Positions 1-6,608 of a stretch of 6,608 nt of DNA are shown one piece after another. The position numbers were made by a program, and so were the translations under genes. Location: contig JAUYMQ010000357.1 in assembly GCA_030698575.1 (NCBI GenBank), positions 1-6,608 of the forward strand. The letters are read 5' to 3'. The notes under the pieces were generated by a model, which ran no database searches, was not told the origin of the DNA, and worked only from the letters and a program-made list of their open reading frames with translations. This stretch comes from Deltaproteobacteria bacterium (lineage in GTDB: Bacteria > JAUYMQ01). Each line of letters starts with the position of its first letter. The first letter of the stretch is position 1.

Positions 1-269
1 AAGCCACGCCCTTCCCGCGTCAGCACGTAGCCCCCTTCCTCGCGGAGTACGACCACCCCCGCCTCCCGGAGTTCCGTCAGCCTCTGATTGAGAACGCTCG
101 GCGACATCGCGTCACACCGGTCGCGCAGATCCCGAAACGTCGGTGTCTCCTCCCGCAGCTCCCAGAGAATTCGGAGCGTCCAGCGGCGGCCCAGCAGATC
201 CAGGAGCGCCATGATCGGGCGCCCCGTGCGGGAGCCCCTGACGCGCTTTCCCGGTTGAGGCACGGCCAT
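1..269 (-). CDS. HxlR-family winged-helix transcriptional regulator (C-terminus cut by window edge)
   Basis: Read on the minus strand from ATG at 269-267, the frame is open to the window edge and gives 89 residues. It has the HxlR layout. A first helix at residues ~17-38 contains RPIMALLDLLGRRW followed by TLRILWEL. A probable recognition helix with MSPSVLNQRLTELREAG lies at ~55-71, and a wing GVVVLREEGGYVLTREGR at ~71-88. HxlR proteins are usually about 110-130 residues, so the last few tens of residues lie outside the window. An AAGGAG site (complement of 275-280) sits 5 nt before the ATG and supports this start. The family binds DNA as dimers, and several members sense electrophiles, quinones or aldehydes through a cysteine near the N-terminus. 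That cysteine is absent here; the only visible Cys is C52, beside the recognition helix, so the signal cannot be deduced. It is divergent from the carboxymuconolactone decarboxylase-like gene at 448, the obvious candidate target. Confidence 0.88.
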   Translation of the reverse strand, partial: MAVPQPGKRVRGSRTGRPIMALLDLLGRRWTLRILWELREETPTFRDLRDRCDAMSPSVLNQRLTELREAGVVVLREEGGYVLTREGRG

Positions 270-305
270 AACCACTCCTTTTTCCTTCAGGCATTTCCCC
301 TGGCG

Positions 306-345
306 CTACGGATTTCGTAGTGCTAGGCTGTTGCTACTGAATCCG
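306..345. promoter_or_regulatory. Candidate operator: imperfect inverted repeat between divergent HxlR and CMD-like genes
   Basis: CGGATTTCGTAG at 309-320 is matched in reverse complement by CTACTGAATCCG at 334-345, with 10 of 12 positions pairing across a 13-nt centre. Within the left arm there is a second perfect element, CTACG-N5-CGTAG (306-320). The site lies in the intergenic region shared by the two divergent genes, about 40 bp upstream of the HxlR start and about 100 bp upstream of the CMD-like start. Dimeric HxlR regulators usually bind dyads close to their own promoter. The dyad is visible; its use as an operator is inferred. I could not place convincing -35/-10 boxes for either gene. 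Confidence 0.45.
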
Positions 346-447
346 AAGCGGAGCTTAGGCTACAAGCGGCCCCGGCGCAAGTGACAGCCGTGGCCATCCG
401 CCGGCGCCAACATCCGGGACCGCTGCCCCGGCAAAAAGGAGGAATCC

Positions 448-975
448 ATGCCCCCCGCAGGAAGGTCGCCGAGAATCACGCCCGTCGAGCCCCCTTACGA
501 TCCCGAGGTGGGGCTCGATCTCGAGAAGCTCATGCCGCCCGGCATCCCGCCGCTCAGCATCTTCAGGACGATCGCGAATCACCCGCGGCTCCTCAGGAAG
601 TTCAGGCTGACGGCGCCGGCGTTCTTTGCCAAGGGGCTTCTAGATCCGAAGGACCGGGAGCTGATCATTCACCGCGCATGTGCGCGCTGCGGCGCCGAGT
701 ACGAGTGGGGAGTGCACGTGGCGGCTTTCTCGCGCCCCATGGGTTTCAGCGAGGCGTGGATCCACGCCACCGTGCACGCCACTGCCGACGACCCTGTCTG
801 GTCGGAGCGCGAGGCGCTGCTTGTGCGGATGGTCGACGAACTTCACGACACGGGCGACGTCTCCGACGATCTCTGGAAGGCCCTGGCCGCGCGCTGGGAC
901 GTGACCCAGCTCGTGGAACTGGTCATCCTTGCGGGGCAGTACCACCTCATCTCGTTCGTCGTGAACGCATTTTGA
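448..975 (+). CDS. Carboxymuconolactone decarboxylase (CMD/AhpD-like) family protein
   Basis: A 175-residue protein of usual length for the single-domain CMD-like group. The start is fixed by AGGAGG at 437-442, 5 nt before the ATG. The family signature is clear: PLSIFRTIANHPRLL (~35-49), DRELIIHRACARCGAEYEWG then VHV (~69-91), ELHDTGDVSDDLWKALAARW (~131-150) and a C-terminal LVILAGQYHLISFVVNAF helix. Candidate catalytic residues are E71, C78, C81 and H90. C78-x-x-C81 looks like a CxxC pair, but H90 lies nine residues after the second Cys, not four as in AhpD, so peroxidase activity should not be assumed. Family members include gamma-carboxymuconolactone decarboxylase, AhpD peroxidases and many uncharacterised enzymes of aromatic or xenobiotic metabolism. 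The divergent HxlR gene suggests an inducible role. Family assignment is firm; the substrate is unknown. Confidence 0.9.
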   Translation: MPPAGRSPRITPVEPPYDPEVGLDLEKLMPPGIPPLSIFRTIANHPRLLRKFRLTAPAFFAKGLLDPKDRELIIHRACARCGAEYEWGVHVAAFSRPMGFSEAWIHATVHATADDPVWSEREALLVRMVDELHDTGDVSDDLWKALAARWDVTQLVELVILAGQYHLISFVVNAF

Positions 976-1071
976 ATCGAGTTCGAGGAAGGCGCGCCCC
1001 CGTTCCCGCCCGCCTGACGCCTTCCGCCCGAGCAGGGCTGCGGCGGCCCGCCACGTTCCGCGGGGCGGCCC

Positions 1072-1101
1072 TTTACGAAAGGGGTCTGCCTCCTTTATTC
1101 T
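1072..1101 (+). promoter_or_regulatory. Possible sigma70-type promoter for the yccF-like gene
   Basis: TTTACG (1072-1077) and TATTCT (1096-1101) each match the -35 and -10 consensus at four of six positions, with an 18-bp spacer. The predicted start, near 1108, would leave a short leader carrying the GGGGAGGG site at 1122-1129. The match is only moderate and the organism's sigma preference is unknown. The -35 box overlaps a small perfect hairpin, CCCTTT-ACG-AAAGGG (1069-1083). Confidence 0.28.
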
Positions 1102-1132
1102 GGCCGCGGGTTCATGAATTCGGGGAGGGACG

Positions 1133-1519
1133 ATGCTGCTGCGCGCAATCTGGTTCCTGGTTCTAGGCTGGTGGTTCGGTGCGATCTGGGCGGCGCTTGC
1201 CTACCTCTTCTGCCTCTCGATCATCGGGCTGCCCATCGGCGTGCTCATGCTCAACCGGCTGCCGCGGGTGCTCACCCTGAAGCCGCTCGAGACGGAGCCC
1301 ATGCACACGATGCGGGAAGGCAAGCCCGCAACGGTCGAGGTCCCGGCGGAAGAGTACCCCTTCATCCTGCGCGCGCTGTGGTTCTTCGTGCTGGGCTGGG
1401 AGATCGCGGGCTTCGCCCTCATCATCGGCTATCTGCTCTGTCTGACGATCCTGGGCATCCCGGCCGGCCTGTGGATACTGAACCGCGTCCCGCTGGTCAT
1501 GACGCTGAAACGCGCCTGA
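1133..1519 (+). CDS. yccF: YccF-family inner membrane protein with two tandem YccF (DUF307) domains
   Basis: A 128-residue hydrophobic protein made of two copies of the YccF domain. Residues 1-50 (AIWFLVLGWW, CLSIIGLPIGVLMLNRLPRV, LTLK) and 78-126 (ALWFFVLGWE, CLTILGIPAGLWILNRVPLV, MTLK) align almost residue for residue. A polar linker at ~51-77 joins them. The paired-repeat layout is the same as in E. coli YccF, though this protein is somewhat shorter. Each repeat has two strongly hydrophobic segments, at about 4-24 and 25-41, then 79-99 and 100-116, with a Gly-Pro kink in IGLP/LGIP, so it should sit in the cytoplasmic membrane. The biochemical function of YccF proteins is not established. 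The start has a GGGGAGGG site 3 nt upstream, which is close but usable. It is followed 68 bp later by the HD gene in the same direction, and the two may share a transcript. Confidence 0.9.
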   Translation: MLLRAIWFLVLGWWFGAIWAALAYLFCLSIIGLPIGVLMLNRLPRVLTLKPLETEPMHTMREGKPATVEVPAEEYPFILRALWFFVLGWEIAGFALIIGYLLCLTILGIPAGLWILNRVPLVMTLKRA

Positions 1520-1587
1520 GCGTCGGCGCATCACATGCGGTAGTCGCGTGCACGCCGCGCCGCGCCCGACAAGGGAGGTACCGCCCG

Positions 1588-2361
1588 ATGGCAACGTCGA
1601 TCGGAACGCTGGCCTGGGTGCGCGAGACCGGCGGCCGCATGCGTCCGCGCGACGTGCTGGGACAACTCGGGCGTGCCCTCGTCGATCAGGCGCGATTGTT
1701 CCCGCCGCAGCTGCTCTTCCGCCTGGGGCTTTCGAGACCCCGCCCGCTCGCCCTCGATCCGCGTGACATCAAGGCGCCCGATTCCCGCGTGGCGCTCGAA
1801 GCCGAGCAGATGTGCCGCGAGGCGGCGCCGCCTTTCCTGCTCAACCACTGCCTGCGCACCTACCTCTGGGGCCGGTTGCTCGCAGCGGCCAACGGCCTCA
1901 CGCTCGACGATGAGCTTTTTTACGTCGCGAGTCTCCTGCACGACCAGGGGCTAATCGACAAGTACGCCGGACCCGAGCCCGGCGTGGAGTGCTTCACGCT
2001 GATCAGCGCCGGCGCGGCGCGAAACCTGGCCGGCAAGTCGGGTTGGCCGCAGGCGCGGCAGGACGCGCTCAGCGAGTCCATCACGCTCCATCTCAACGTG
2101 CGCGTCGGACTCGAGAACGGAACGGAGGCGCACCTCCTCAATGCTTCCACGGTGGTGGATGTGCTGGGCCTGCGGCTGTGGGAGATTCCCGCCGAGGCGC
2201 GCGCCGCGGTGCTCGAACGCTACCCGCGCCTGGGCGTGAAGAAAGGGATTGCGGAACGCTGGACGGAGGAGGGGCGAGTGCGCCCGCATGGGCGCGCGCG
2301 CTTCCTGAGCCGTTATCTGCTGTTCGATCTGCTCGTGCGGATGGCGCCCTACAGGGAATAG
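1588..2361 (+). CDS. HD-domain metal-dependent hydrolase, cyanamide hydratase-like group
   Basis: A 257-residue protein. The ATG at 1588 follows an AAGGGAGG site at 1571-1578. The frame is open further upstream, but that part overlaps yccF and has no family signal. The metal-binding HD pattern is complete: H87 in LLNHCLRTYLWG, H118-D119 in VASLLHDQGL, and D191 in ASTVVDVLGL. H168 in ESITLHLNV is an additional likely ligand or active-site residue. The spacing and surroundings resemble the cyanamide hydratase/diamine-oxidase-like HD group more than the nucleotide-phosphohydrolase or c-di-GMP (HD-GYP) groups; no GYP motif is present. An N-terminal ~65 residues precede the HD core and are not recognised. 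There is no signal peptide, so it is probably cytoplasmic. The real substrate cannot be told from sequence. The gene ends 27 bp before the convergent VOC gene, with no convincing terminator between them. Confidence 0.82.
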   Translation: MATSIGTLAWVRETGGRMRPRDVLGQLGRALVDQARLFPPQLLFRLGLSRPRPLALDPRDIKAPDSRVALEAEQMCREAAPPFLLNHCLRTYLWGRLLAAANGLTLDDELFYVASLLHDQGLIDKYAGPEPGVECFTLISAGAARNLAGKSGWPQARQDALSESITLHLNVRVGLENGTEAHLLNASTVVDVLGLRLWEIPAEARAAVLERYPRLGVKKGIAERWTEEGRVRPHGRARFLSRYLLFDLLVRMAPYRE

Positions 2362-2388
2362 CCGGAACGACCCGCTTCCCCCGCCGGC

Positions 2389-3237
2389 CTATGCGGTCGG
2401 GCGCTTGTAGAACTCGATGGGCGTGTTGTTCGTGCCTTCGGGGCCGACGAGCCCCACGTCGAGGCCCCCGGCCGACTTCGTCCGCGTCACAGTGAGCCCC
2501 GCGTTCTCCAGGCGCTTCGCCGCCGCCGTGAAATCACTCACCTCGATTCCAATCAGGAAGAGCCCCTCGCCGCTCTTCTCGAGCCGTCTCGCAAGCAGCG
2601 CCGCAGGCTTCGCGCCCGAAGGGGCCATGAGGGCGATGACGGCGCGGCCGACGGGGTGAAAGGCCACGCGCACGCCGCGTGCGGCATCCTCAATCTTCGC
2701 CGCGCAGGGGAGATCGAAGTGCGCGCCGAAGACGGCCGAAGCCTGGCTCTCGTCATTCACGGCAACGCCCGCGGTGTGAAGCCGGATGAACGGTCCTTGC
2801 GGCGGATGTAACTCGGGGGGCGCATCCTCCGGGAAGGGGGTGGCGTACTCGACGAGCGTGCCGTGATTGGCCTTCGGGTGGAGGAAGCCGATCATCCCGG
2901 CGAGCCCCTTCCTGGGCGCCTTGTCGATGAGCGGGATTCCCTTCGCCTCCGCCTCCTTCAGGGCGCCGCTCACGTCATCGGTCTGGAAACAGACGTGGTG
3001 CAGCCCCTCGCCGCGCTTTTCGAGAAATTTCGCCACACCGCCGTTCTCGTTCACGGGTTCGAGCAGCTCGATCTCGCTCTCGCCGCAGGGGAGGAGCGCG
3101 GCGGAGACGCCCTGATCGGGCACCACCGCGGTCTTCGATACGGCGAGCTGGAGGGTGTCGCGCCAGAAGCCGTAAGCCTTCTCGAGATTCCGGACGACGA
3201 TTCCGACGTGATGGATACGGGTAAAAGAGCTTGGCAT
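2389..3237 (-). CDS. Two-domain VOC protein with N-terminal methylmalonyl-CoA epimerase-like half
   Basis: A 282-residue protein with two VOC (glyoxalase-fold) modules. Residues 5-132 closely resemble methylmalonyl-CoA epimerase: IHHVGIVVRNLEKAYGFW at the start, ESEIELLEPV, then VAKFLEKRGEGLHHVCFQTD, FLHPKANHGTLVEYA. The likely metal ligands H10, H81 and E130 are all present. Epimerases interconvert (2R)- and (2S)-methylmalonyl-CoA in propionyl-CoA metabolism and are usually about 130-150 residues, so this protein is double length. The second module (~150-282) keeps the fold pattern and ends IEFYKRPTA, with H154 and E275, but has LFLIGIEV where the middle His would be, so its metal site looks broken. 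An AGGAGG site (complement of 3249-3254) lies 11 nt before the ATG, slightly long. The gene is monocistronic and convergent with the HD gene. True epimerase activity is plausible; a dioxygenase or lyase of the same fold is the alternative. Confidence 0.82.
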   Translation of the reverse strand: MPSSFTRIHHVGIVVRNLEKAYGFWRDTLQLAVSKTAVVPDQGVSAALLPCGESEIELLEPVNENGGVAKFLEKRGEGLHHVCFQTDDVSGALKEAEAKGIPLIDKAPRKGLAGMIGFLHPKANHGTLVEYATPFPEDAPPELHPPQGPFIRLHTAGVAVNDESQASAVFGAHFDLPCAAKIEDAARGVRVAFHPVGRAVIALMAPSGAKPAALLARRLEKSGEGLFLIGIEVSDFTAAAKRLENAGLTVTRTKSAGGLDVGLVGPEGTNNTPIEFYKRPTA

Positions 3238-3310
3238 GCGTGCGGCAACCTCCTGTCCGTGGGTGAGCGTGGCGCGCCCATCTTGCGAGAATCGGCCTGC
3301 GTCCGCAAGT

Positions 3311-3339
3311 GGGGTCAGGCATGACTTGTTGACTTATGC
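3311..3339 (+). repeat. REP-like repeat copy A (begins GGGGTCAGGC)
   Basis: Copy A begins GGGGTCAGGC and continues with TGACTT and TTGACTT. It matches copy C (6246-6274, opposite strand) at 25 of 29 positions without gaps, and matches copy B (3409-3438, opposite strand) with a few changes and a 1-nt shift. Sequences starting GGGGTCAGG and containing TTGACTT-like blocks are, as I recall, common multicopy ends of REP-associated (Y1-type) transposase elements in GC-rich uncultured bacteria. That link is from memory, not from a search. It lies 73 bp upstream of the VOC gene start. Confidence 0.75.
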
Positions 3340-3408
3340 GAAACTTGCTCCCGGCGACGTAACGCCCTTTGACGAACGATGCCCTCCGGCGATAGAAAGG
3401 TAACAATC

Positions 3409-3438
3409 CAACAAGTCACGAAAGCCAGGCCTGATCCC
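3409..3438 (-). repeat. REP-like repeat copy B, abutting the sixA start codon
   Basis: Read on the minus strand it begins GGGATCAGGC and contains GTGACTTGTTG, matching copy A at roughly four positions in five once a 1-nt shift is allowed. Its outer end is the base immediately before the ATG at 3439. It therefore supplies the whole immediate 5' leader of the sixA-like gene. Confidence 0.65.
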
Positions 3439-3897
3439 ATGATTGACCTCTACCTTTTCCGGCACGGTGACGCCGACCCGCGGGGTCCCGACGGCAGCGA
3501 TGCCACGCGGGCGCTCACCGACCGGGGCCGGATCGAGGTGCGCGAGGCCGCCCGCGGCCTGGTGCGGCTGGGTGTGGAGCTCGACGTCGTTCTGACGAGC
3601 CCGCTCGTCCGCGCGCGCGAGACCGCTGCGATCGCCAGCGAGGTGCTTCGCCCCGCCGGCGGCACGCACCTCTGCGACGCGCTCGGCCCCGGCGGCTCGG
3701 ACGCGGCCCTGTTCGACGAAATCGCAGCACAACAGGGCGGGCGCGTCATGCTCGTGGGGCACATCCCGCAGCTTTACGAGCTGGCGAGCGTCATGGTGTG
3801 GGGCCGGCCGGAGGGGGCCATCGTGCTCAAGAAGGCGGGGCTCATCCGCGTTGTCACGCAGGGGCTTCCCCCGTCGGCGCGCGGCGAGCTTCACTGA
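3439..3897 (+). CDS. sixA: SixA-like phosphohistidine phosphatase (histidine phosphatase superfamily)
   Basis: A 152-residue protein, about the usual length for SixA. It opens with the superfamily signature LYLFRHGDADP, where R8, H9 and G10 include the phospho-accepting His. It has SPLVRARETA at 54-63 with the conserved phosphate-pocket Arg (R58), and ends the core with VMLVGHIPQL, supplying the second catalytic His, H108. E. coli SixA removes phosphate from histidine phosphotransfer domains and from a PTS phosphocarrier; the partner here is unknown and no kinase lies nearby. I chose the ATG at 3439 because family members begin a few residues before RHG. The frame is also open from an ATG at 3379, which would add 20 residues encoded by the repeat. 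No good ribosome site precedes 3439; AGG at 3427-3429, inside repeat B, is the best available. Confidence 0.87.
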   Translation: MIDLYLFRHGDADPRGPDGSDATRALTDRGRIEVREAARGLVRLGVELDVVLTSPLVRARETAAIASEVLRPAGGTHLCDALGPGGSDAALFDEIAAQQGGRVMLVGHIPQLYELASVMVWGRPEGAIVLKKAGLIRVVTQGLPPSARGELH

Positions 3898-3947
3898 TTG
3901 CTCACGGCCGATCAACTGGGGCGCATCGCGGGCGCGCCCTGACCTTG

Positions 3948-3989
3948 CCCGCACGTCCTCACCCGCACGTCCTGTTCCGCACGCGCTTG
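3948..3989 (+). repeat. Tandem repeat, 14-bp unit, three copies (third diverged)
   Basis: The 12-mer CCCGCACGTCCT occurs at 3948-3959 and 3962-3973, followed at the same period by TCCGCACGCGCT (3976-3987). The unit is 14 bp. It lies in the 160-bp gap between sixA and the zinc-ribbon gene, upstream of the latter's possible promoter. Regularly spaced copies could be regulator-binding sites or simply slippage. Confidence 0.6.
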
Positions 3990-4005
3990 TTCGAACGCCC
4001 CTGGA

Positions 4006-4035
4006 TTGGCGCGGCGCCGGGGCGCGTGATAGCGT
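4006..4035 (+). promoter_or_regulatory. Weak candidate promoter for the zinc-ribbon/lyase pair
   Basis: TTGGCG (4006-4011) and TAGCGT (4030-4035) are separated by 18 bp, placing transcription start close to the AAGGAG site at 4045-4050. The -10 box matches consensus at only three of six positions, so this rests mainly on position. A promoter somewhere in this gap is likely because 160 bp separates the pair from sixA. Confidence 0.22.
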
Positions 4036-4057
4036 GACTGGGGGAAGGAGACAGCCG

Positions 4058-4252
4058 ATGGCCGAGGTGAAAGTCAGGCGCTGCATGGTGTGCGCCAAGG
4101 AATACGAGATGGCGGGCTCGATCTGCGAGACCTGCAACGCGAAGATCCGCGGCGAGGCCGCGGGCAAGAAGGAGGGGCTCCGCAAGGAGGCCGAGCGCGA
4201 AATCAAGCGGGCGGGCGTGAGCACCGAAACGCACAAACCGGAGAAGAAATGA
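4058..4252 (+). CDS. Small four-cysteine (putative zinc-ribbon) protein
   Basis: A 64-residue protein with two CxxC knuckles, C9-x-x-C12 and C23-x-x-C26, ten residues apart, typical of a zinc ribbon. A strongly charged, Lys/Glu-rich helical tail (~31-64, containing GKKEGLRKEAEREIKRAG) follows. The start is well supported by AAGGAG at 4045-4050, 7 nt before the ATG; the frame is open upstream but the extra part has no signal. Its TGA overlaps the start of the lyase gene, so the two are very probably translated together. I do not recognise a named family. Small zinc ribbons often bind nucleic acid or act as protein-interaction modules, but nothing here shows which. There is no signal peptide, so it should be cytoplasmic. 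Confidence 0.78.
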   Translation: MAEVKVRRCMVCAKEYEMAGSICETCNAKIRGEAAGKKEGLRKEAEREIKRAGVSTETHKPEKK

Positions 4253-5148
4253 TGCCTCAGGACGCCACACAGGCGCCCGCCGCTGGAGGCGGCGGCCGGG
4301 TTCTCGCGCTCCTCGAGAAGCTTGGCACGGCCGTGTTCCCGGGCGTCTATGACGCGGTGAGCGCCAAACTCGCCGAACAGGCGGGCTTCGAGATGATCTT
4401 CATCTCGGGCTACAGCGTCTCCGCCGCGCGGCTCGGTGAGCCTGACTTCGGCCTGGTCACCCAGAGCGAGATGGTCGAGGCCGCGCGATCTGTATGCCGC
4501 TCCGTGCGAGTGCCTGTCATCGTCGATGCCGACACGGGCTACGGCAACGCGTTGAACGTCATGCGAACGGTAAAGGATCTTATCGCCGCGGGCGCGGCGG
4601 GAATGTTTCTGGAAGATCAGGTCTGGCCCAAGCGCTGTGGTCACATGAAAGGGAAGAAGATCGTCCCGATGGAGGAATATCTCCAGAAGATCCGCGCGGC
4701 CGTGGATGCGCGCGCCGGGCGCGACTTCTTCATCGTTGCGCGCACCGACGCGAATCAGGCGGTGGGGCTCGAGGAGGCCATCCGCCGGGTGAAGGCGGCG
4801 CGAGACGCGGGCGCGGACGCCGCCTTCGTCGAGGCGCCGAACTCGATCGAGGAACTGCGGGCCGTTGCGAGCGCGGTGCCGCCACCCCTCGTGGCGAACA
4901 TGCTCGAGCGGGGGATCACGCCGCTTCTCACCCGGGAGGAGCTGCGCGAGCTGGGTTACGCCCTCGCCGTCTGCCCGCTCACCGGTCTCTACGCGGCCGC
5001 GAAGGCGATGAAGGAGATCTTCGCCGAGCTGCGCGCGAACGGTACCACGCGCGGCGCGCTCGACAAGCTCATCACCTTCGACGAGTTTCACGATCTTGTC
5101 GGCCTCGAAGAAAAATACGCCCTCGACGCGAAGTACGCGGCGGACTGA
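4249..5148 (+). CDS. PEP mutase/isocitrate lyase-superfamily enzyme, 2-methylisocitrate lyase-like
   Basis: A 299-residue TIM-barrel enzyme of normal length for the PEP mutase/isocitrate lyase superfamily. Visible motifs are FPGVYDAVSAKLAEQAGFE (30-48), SGYSVSAARLG (53-63), the Mg-binding VDADTGYGN (92-100; D93, D95), LEDQ then KRCGHMKGK (128-136) with C130 as the catalytic Cys of lyases, and VARTDAN (163-169). The KRCGH form is like 2-methylisocitrate lyase (PrpB), which splits methylisocitrate to pyruvate and succinate. Oxaloacetate decarboxylases and dimethylmalate lyases share much of this. No methylcitrate synthase or dehydratase gene is in the window, so PrpB function is not established. 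Two ATGs, at 4249 and 4252, are possible; GGAG at 4240-4243 is 5 and 8 nt away, and 4252 may be the true start. The 4249 ATG overlaps the upstream TGA, implying translational coupling to the zinc-ribbon gene. Confidence 0.88.
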   Translation: MMPQDATQAPAAGGGGRVLALLEKLGTAVFPGVYDAVSAKLAEQAGFEMIFISGYSVSAARLGEPDFGLVTQSEMVEAARSVCRSVRVPVIVDADTGYGNALNVMRTVKDLIAAGAAGMFLEDQVWPKRCGHMKGKKIVPMEEYLQKIRAAVDARAGRDFFIVARTDANQAVGLEEAIRRVKAARDAGADAAFVEAPNSIEELRAVASAVPPPLVANMLERGITPLLTREELRELGYALAVCPLTGLYAAAKAMKEIFAELRANGTTRGALDKLITFDEFHDLVGLEEKYALDAKYAAD

Positions 5149-5182
5149 TCCGCGAGGCCGGGTGCTCCAGGACAGGCTCAGA

Positions 5183-6247
5183 ATGCTTCTGGGAAGAATC
5201 ACACCGGCGATATTCTTGATCTGCGCGGTGCTCTCGCTTTCACCCACTCTGGCGCATGCGGTGGCGGGTCCCGACTCGGTCGCCGTCATCGCCAATACCC
5301 ACATCGATCAGAGCAAGGCGCTCGCGGCGCACTACGCGGCGGCCCGCCAGATCCCGGCGCGGCAGGTCTGCGAGATCAACGTTCCGATCCCGCCCTACGA
5401 TCCCACCCCCGTTCCTTCAGGCCAGTACTTCTCCCAGAAGCGGACCTTCCTCAGCGTGCCCGAGTTTCGCACCTACGTGGTGGGCGGGCTCGAGCAGTGC
5501 CTGGGCGAGCGGGCGCTCGAGCGGATCGAGGCCGTGGTCATCGCGCGCGGAGTCCCCTTGATGGTGGGAATTTCAGTGGGCTTCGGATTTCAGTTCCCCT
5601 CGCTGGCCGCGACCCTTTCCGTCTGGAAATCCAAAACCCTGAACGGCGAGGATCTCATCGATCTCCGTCCCATGCTCGTGGAGCCCATCTGCGATCCCGC
5701 CTCGATCAACTGCCTGGCCCGATGGCGGAACCCCCTCAAGGGAGCGCCGGAGGTCTTTTCGCCCGGCTGGTCCGGCGCCTCGATTTCGGAAGAGGGGGTC
5801 CCCTTCGAGGGCAAGCCGCTCATGGTCACGATGCTCCACGGCCTGAGCTACGGTGTCGACGCGAGCGGCAACCCCGAGGTCGACCCCCTGGGACCCGCGA
5901 CGAATCTCATCGACAGCGCGCTGGCTGCCGAGGCGGCCGGCGGCGCGTCGGGGAAGTTCCTCTTCATGCGGAGCAGCGACGTGTACCGCGGCATCCTCGA
6001 CGTCGAGTACGAGGGGATCGTCGGGGGCCTGTCGCAGCGCGGATTCACGGACGCCGCCATCGTGGACTTCAGCAAGACGCACACCGGCGAGACGCTGGCC
6101 TCGTTCTTCGTCGGCACCGCCGATCTCGGCACCTACGATCCGATGGGAGGCAGCTCGACGATTGAGGGCAATACCTATGCACCGGGCGCCCTCGTCGACA
6201 ACCTGACGAGCCTGGGCGCATCGCCCCCGAATTTTCCAACAAACTGA
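5183..6247 (+). CDS. Exported TIGR03790-like protein, probably C-terminally truncated
   Basis: A 354-residue protein. A signal peptide is clear: R5, hydrophobic core IFLICAVLSLSPTLA, and a likely cleavage after AHA at residue 26. The mature start PDSVAVIANTHIDQSKALAAHYAAARQIP, here split as PDSVAVIANTH and SKALAAHYAAARQIPARQV, is the characteristic opening of TIGR03790 proteins. ERIEAVVIARGVPLMVG (113-129) is the next conserved block. Their function is unknown; some resemble caspase/gingipain folds. The frame ends soon after TYAPGALVDNLTSLGA (331-346), a block that, as I recall, in relatives is followed by roughly a hundred residues with a GQS...GA.G..G...EP region. That part is missing, and repeat C begins at the stop codon. 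The last residues, NFPTN, come from an AT-rich stretch unlike the gene. The start at 5183 has only a weak AGG site; GTG at 5162, with GAGG 4 nt upstream, is an alternative that keeps the signal peptide. It follows the lyase gene by 34 bp. Confidence 0.75.
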   Translation: MLLGRITPAIFLICAVLSLSPTLAHAVAGPDSVAVIANTHIDQSKALAAHYAAARQIPARQVCEINVPIPPYDPTPVPSGQYFSQKRTFLSVPEFRTYVVGGLEQCLGERALERIEAVVIARGVPLMVGISVGFGFQFPSLAATLSVWKSKTLNGEDLIDLRPMLVEPICDPASINCLARWRNPLKGAPEVFSPGWSGASISEEGVPFEGKPLMVTMLHGLSYGVDASGNPEVDPLGPATNLIDSALAAEAAGGASGKFLFMRSSDVYRGILDVEYEGIVGGLSQRGFTDAAIVDFSKTHTGETLASFFVGTADLGTYDPMGGSSTIEGNTYAPGALVDNLTSLGASPPNFPTN

Positions 6248-6274
6248 ACAAGTCAATAAGTCAAGCCTGACCCC
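6246..6274 (-). repeat. REP-like repeat copy C, overlapping the ends of two convergent genes
   Basis: Read on the minus strand it begins GGGGTCAGGC and contains TTGACTTATTGACTT, with 25 of 29 positions identical to copy A. It overlaps the last two bases of the TIGR03790-like stop codon (6245-6247) and contains the stop codon of the minus-strand DMT gene (6261-6263). The adjoining stretch from about 6230 is also AT-rich, so the inserted material may extend a little to the left. Confidence 0.75.
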
Positions 6275-6608
6275 GGTTCAACAACCAGAGGCCGATGGCC
6301 AGGAGGGCGATCGCGGCGATCTTCTGCGCCACGATGGCGCGGCTCGTCTGCTCGACGATGAGGCCCGGGCGCAGCCGCGCGAGGATCGCGCTGAAGAGCA
6401 GGACAAAGAAACCGCCCACGCCGCTCAGCGCCGCGACGACGGCCACCGGCCCGGTCTGCAGCGCCCGCGTCAGGAAGAGAAAGCCCGAGATGCTCAGGAG
6501 CACCGTCGTAGCAATGATGAGGTGCGTGCCGGCGTCGTGACCGCGCAGCGTGGCGGCGAGGCGCCGGCGCGGGCCCGGGGCCAGGAGCGCCACACCCGCC
6601 GCCGCGAC
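6261..6608 (-). CDS. DMT-superfamily (EamA-like) transporter, C-terminal part, N-terminus beyond window
   Basis: The minus-strand frame is open to the right edge and gives 115 residues. A GTG at 6593-6591 lies inside the frame, but the reading continues upstream of it, so the gene is partial, not short. Three strongly hydrophobic segments are visible at about 29-48 (LIIATTVLLSISGFLFLTRA), 54-77 (VAVVAALSGVGGFFVLLFSA) and 91-110 (IVAQKIAAIALLAIGLWLL). The pattern of a G-P-containing loop before the second segment, a charged loop RLRPGLIVEQTSR, and a final A-x-x-L-x-x-x-GLWLL helix matches the C-terminal half of EamA/DMT permeases, which normally have ten helices. The substrate cannot be inferred. 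The last residues, RGQA, and the stop are encoded within repeat copy C, so the native C-terminus may have been replaced. Confidence 0.7.
   Translation of the reverse strand, partial: VAAAGVALLAPGPRRRLAATLRGHDAGTHLIIATTVLLSISGFLFLTRALQTGPVAVVAALSGVGGFFVLLFSAILARLRPGLIVEQTSRAIVAQKIAAIALLAIGLWLLNRGQA

Follow-up and report, generated by a model that had tools for sequence, protein, structure and literature searches.

The three related repeats in a 6,608-nucleotide stretch of a deltaproteobacterial assembly (GCA_030698575.1, contig JAUYMQ010000357.1, positions 1 to 6,608; hereafter the window) can be assigned with high confidence to the TIRs of a TIRtron-type element, whose transposase is encoded in the same genome on contig C244. 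Inverted doublets of the repeat are best explained as internally deleted, non-autonomous derivatives spread by this transposase, and solo copies as remnants. The kind of selfish repeat is already known (TIRtron/TIRYT ends); what is new is this example of it. Elements of the TIRYT/TIRtron kind have received very little attention since their description in 2013. The features under consideration are compiled in the table below.

Table. Repeat copies and genes in the window, and Y1_Tnp genes elsewhere in the same genome
Feature	Location	Positions	Strand	Description
Copy A	window	3311-3339	+	GGGGTCAGGCATGACTTGTTGACTTATGC; C244-family TIR that forms the left arm of doublet A+B
Copy B	window	3410-3438	-	GGGATCAGGCCTGGCTTTCGTGACTTGTT; decayed TIR, right arm of A's doublet
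Copy C	window	6246-6274	-	GGGGTCAGGCTTGACTTATTGACTTGTTC; solo TIR, near-perfect against the family consensus
Doublet A+B	window	3311-3438	.	128 bp, non-autonomous, REPIN/MITE-like; arms predicted to pair when single-stranded
sixA	window	3439-3897	+	TIGR00249; bystander
Small zinc-ribbon-like protein	window	4058-4252	+	DZR_2 below cut-off; bystander
PrpB/PEP-mutase-family lyase	window	4252-5148	+	Bystander
TIGR03790-like gene	window	5096-6247	+	Truncated at C; stop TGA 6245-6247, at the repeat's inner end
Multi-transmembrane gene, 3' end	window	6261-6608	-	EamA-like by eye; no Pfam/NCBIfam hit
C244 transposase gene	contig C244	260-1204		314 aa; Y1_Tnp above cut-off and Bac_DnaA_C (DnaA-type HTH)
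Second RAYT-type gene	contig C110	918-2044 (L051); L092		Own ends, GGGGTCAGACCCCTTTA
Third Y1_Tnp gene	contig C176			131 aa by ORF; short

All three copies were found as the preliminary description had given them: A and C are identical at 25 of 29 positions and face inward with GGGG as the outer end of both, and there is a third copy, B. The head of B agrees with that of A at nine of 10 positions, and the low overall match between the two in an ungapped alignment (15 of 29) is due to one inserted base in B. The family consensus and copies A and C all contain GGGGTCAG, a motif of the GGGGWSAS type; the corresponding sequence in B is GGGATCAG. The GC content of the A+B doublet is 0.55, that of its surroundings 0.67. 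Around C, repeat-like sequence may span about 6237-6278, with AACC on the outside and CAACAAAC on the inside. Judged from the window alone, the resemblance between A and C is barely above chance. The best inverted 29-mer in each of 25 dinucleotide shuffles of the window matched at 22-25 positions, and 25 was reached in two of the 25 shuffles; the 10-mer, allowing at most one mismatch, occurs four times in the window against 0.93 expected. These shuffles are the one point in favor of regarding the likeness of A, B, and C as an accident of low-complexity, GC-rich sequence. This reading has next to no probability, as it is refuted by the count across the genome (17 sites of the 28-mer pattern against none for the control) and by exact 25-mers in other phyla (both detailed below).

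The family follows the pattern GGGGTCAGGC-N-TGACTTATTGACTTGTTG. The 17 sites in the organism's own genome were obtained with the 28-mer pattern at ≤3 mismatches, the control being the reversed pattern; the 17-mer pattern with 0-1 mismatch yielded 26 sites. Including decayed partners, the genome contains ∼27 copies. Six inverted doublets, always with GGGG outward, are found on contigs C14, C25, C142, C480, C559, and C614 (the last being A+B), whereas 0.025 pairs less than 150 bp apart would be expected if 27 copies were placed at random. Measured end to end, the doublets vary in length between 79 and 132 bp. Well-preserved doublets fold as hairpins considerably better than their shuffled counterparts, with z values of -8.7 (C25), -6.9 (C14), -5.7 (C480), and -4.0. 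The A-B doublet, with its decayed B arm, folds less strongly (z about -2), and the fold of the C142 doublet did not differ significantly from shuffles.

The sequence immediately outside GGGG, when inspected by eye in this genome, is either AACC or RRT, and many doublets have one type at each end; there are exceptions, such as the C14 doublet with AACC at both sides. The AACC flank appears to go along with an 8-base TTGACTT period, the RRT flank often with a 9-base period. In the window, the outer flank is AGT for A and AACC for C. It is possible that the two flank types represent left and right ends.

Three Y1_Tnp genes are present in the genome. The one on contig C244 is flanked by TIRs of the family, at 159 (+) and at 1191-1219 (-), the latter overlapping its stop codon. 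Its product contains the HUH motif in the form HLH (TNHLHLA) and the tyrosine motif YIHQNPVKA, and its C-terminus (residues 225-289) matches PF08299 with an E value of 6.9e-10. The score of the protein with the NCBIfam model REP_Tyr_transpos, 63.8, is below the cut-off of 80, which is expected for a member of a divergent subclass. In the C244 element, the left end (TGGGGCAGGC) is slightly decayed; therefore, the present copy may be inactive. The second gene, on contig C110, is likewise of the RAYT type, and its ends constitute a family of their own with ∼20 dispersed sites, some of them arranged as close inverted pairs. No flanking pair of the GGGG type was seen at the third gene, on C176. With two genes of the RAYT type, each accompanied by a distinct end and ∼20 dispersed copies of it, this genome is a compact natural test of which end is recognized by which transposase.

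The preliminary description had named dispersed REP-like sequence as one of two possibilities, and had proposed to look for further copies in the genome and for a Y1-type (RAYT) transposase gene with the same ends. Both exist: the copies are dispersed and not confined to the window, they form inverted doublets, and the RAYT-type gene on C244 carries the same ends. The label "REP-like" stands to this extent; TIRtron-type describes the repeats more exactly, since they have neither a GTAG head nor a robust hairpin. An ordinary GTAG-type REP/REPIN family moved by a canonical RAYT would also account for the folding of the inverted doublets into hairpins and for the same sequence bordering a RAYT-like gene. 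However, the head is GGGG and not GTAG or GGAG, and a single unit contains only a 4-bp GTCA/TGAC stem, the fold of solo copy C being no better than that of shuffles (z -0.19). In addition, the DnaA_C tail of the transposase is that of subclass 2.1, and Quentin et al (2018; PMC6006769) found no REP-like sequences for this subclass. An ordinary REP/REPIN family is, thus, very improbable, and identity of the unit with a GTAG-type REP is ruled out by the conserved GGGG head together with the lack of a stable single-unit hairpin.

The C244 transposase has very probably spread the copies, as suggested by its matching ends. By analogy to IS200/IS605 and RAYT enzymes, the protein would act on single-stranded DNA in which the paired ends have folded into a hairpin: it would bind this structure, cleave it on the GGGG side, and insert the DNA elsewhere, leaving no target duplication. 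Internal deletion of the full element would give rise to non-autonomous derivatives, the inverted doublets with lengths of 79-132 bp (for example, that at 3311-3438), which the C244 transposase would have spread. Decay of doublets would eventually leave solo ends; C may be such a remnant or the half of a decayed doublet.

The same end occurs well beyond this genome. Exact matches to the 25-mer GGGGTCAGGCNTGACTTNTTGACTT are present in 17 DNA stretches from ten other genomes, which are labeled Gammaproteobacteria, Nitrospirae/Nitrospiria, Nitrospinota, Desulfofustis, Desulforamulus, and other Firmicutes. Many of these sites are doublets as well, and in Desulfofustis glycolicus (L070 1726-2084) the family is represented by a tandem of two near-perfect doublets 297 bp apart. 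A relative of the C244 protein is present in eight of the ten genomes and was not found in the other two. Among the genomes tested, the two best-scoring relatives come from Desulfofustis (45% identity) and from a MAG of the Gammaproteobacteria (40%); their ends are nearly identical to those of C244. A third relative (35% identity) has an intermediate end, GGGGTCAGACTTGTGATTT, and more distant ones have other ends (GGGGTCAG..., GGGGACAC..., or GGGGAC...), with GGGG(T/A)... or a related head. As the nearest enzymes are found with the nearest ends and distant enzymes with others, ends and transposases vary together. The fact that one 25-base end is shared between several phyla while the transposases are only 40-45% identical suggests a strong constraint on recognition.

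In the window, the ATG of sixA, at 3439, directly abuts the outer end of B, making the doublet the immediate upstream sequence of this gene; a further in-frame ATG upstream of sixA, at 3379, falls inside the doublet. At the other side of the block, homologous sequence in the TIGR03790-like protein extends to residue 380 of its 383 (base 6235) and breaks off immediately ahead of C. The best relative of this protein (from genome G137) covers the full family profile, 1-316; therefore, the protein encoded in the window lacks about 60 residues of the family domain. The missing C-terminal part was sought across the assembly, which is 92% complete, and was not found. Copy C also provides the last codons and the stop codon (TGA, 6261-6263) of the membrane protein gene, the encoded tail of which is N-R-G-Q-A-stop. 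As read from the sequence, C sits at a real breakpoint, which may have arisen through insertion accompanied by deletion or through recombination between ends. The break in the TIGR03790-like gene is the sole sign of rearrangement, and it concerns C, not A.

The alternative offered in the preliminary description was that A and C bracket one unit of four genes that can be moved or inverted. Such a composite 3-kb unit, comprising the genes from sixA to the TIGR03790-like gene, would either be moved in trans by the C244 transposase or be inverted through recombination between the copies. Its ends are indeed arranged like those of the C244 element, with A and C facing inward and GGGG outside; the outer flanks of A and C are of the types that occur at opposite ends of some doublets; and C is located at a gene breakpoint. 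Still, A is already partnered by B within 128 bp, and C is one among many solo copies. As A belongs to its own doublet and C is solo, the apparent bracket results from two separate insertions. Furthermore, the GC content of the block equals that of its surroundings (0.67 each), a transposase is absent from it, and the elements known from this group are short. The block was not seen elsewhere: relatives at the DNA level were found for the lyase only, without the neighboring genes, and a search for the gene order in 59 and 241 genomes, kin at the domain level only, revealed no synteny and no alternative arrangement. A search within the phylum returned the organism's own genome alone, meaning that all comparisons are with genomes related at the domain level; the lineage of the source organism seems to have been sampled very sparsely. 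Consequently, the claim of a movable or invertible unit is unsupported, and the existence of such a unit is very unlikely. Hardly better are the prospects of a related reading, in which the transposase, or recombination between dispersed ends, created a junction at C, and A and C, as a left-type and a right-type end, could be mobilized as a composite by the C244 transposase. The genes enclosed by A and C are bystanders, not a mobile unit marked by the repeats. This case may serve as a caution that two facing repeats around a set of genes need not define a unit.

TIRYTs, or TIRtrons, are RAYT-like genes flanked by inverted repeats containing GGGGWSAS, and their TIRs form families of single and dimeric copies (Di Nocera et al, 2013; PMC3733652). 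The elements described here share with them the GGGGWSAS motif in the repeats, in the form GGGGTCAG in the consensus, A, and C; the RAYT-like gene with HUH and catalytic-tyrosine motifs between inverted copies, on C244; and a moderately abundant family of singles and dimers (∼27 copies, six inverted doublets). The genome and the specific TIR sequence differ; the principle is the same. Searching the literature for the literal GGGGTCAG retrieved unrelated papers only. Most TIRYTs fall into TnpA-REP subclass 2.1, which has a DnaA_C-like HTH tail (Quentin et al, 2018; PMC6006769). The C244 protein is placed in this subclass by domain content only: like its members, it is a long Y1 protein that contains HUH and Y motifs and ends in an HTH resembling Bac_DnaA_C. 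Like MITEs, the doublets are short non-coding elements bounded by the inverted repeats of a full-length transposase element, but the transposase is an HUH/Y1 enzyme instead of a DDE enzyme, and target duplication is therefore not expected. With REPINs (Bertels and Rainey, 2011; PMC3116915), the family shares hairpin-forming inverted doublets, solo copies that are likely remnants, and a dedicated RAYT-type transposase, whereas its unit is not a GTAG-tagged REP, the spacing within doublets is variable (79-132 bp end to end), and the copy number is low. Although neither tag nor palindrome qualifies the units as REPs, the doublets resemble REPINs in their layout and, presumably, in their mechanism.
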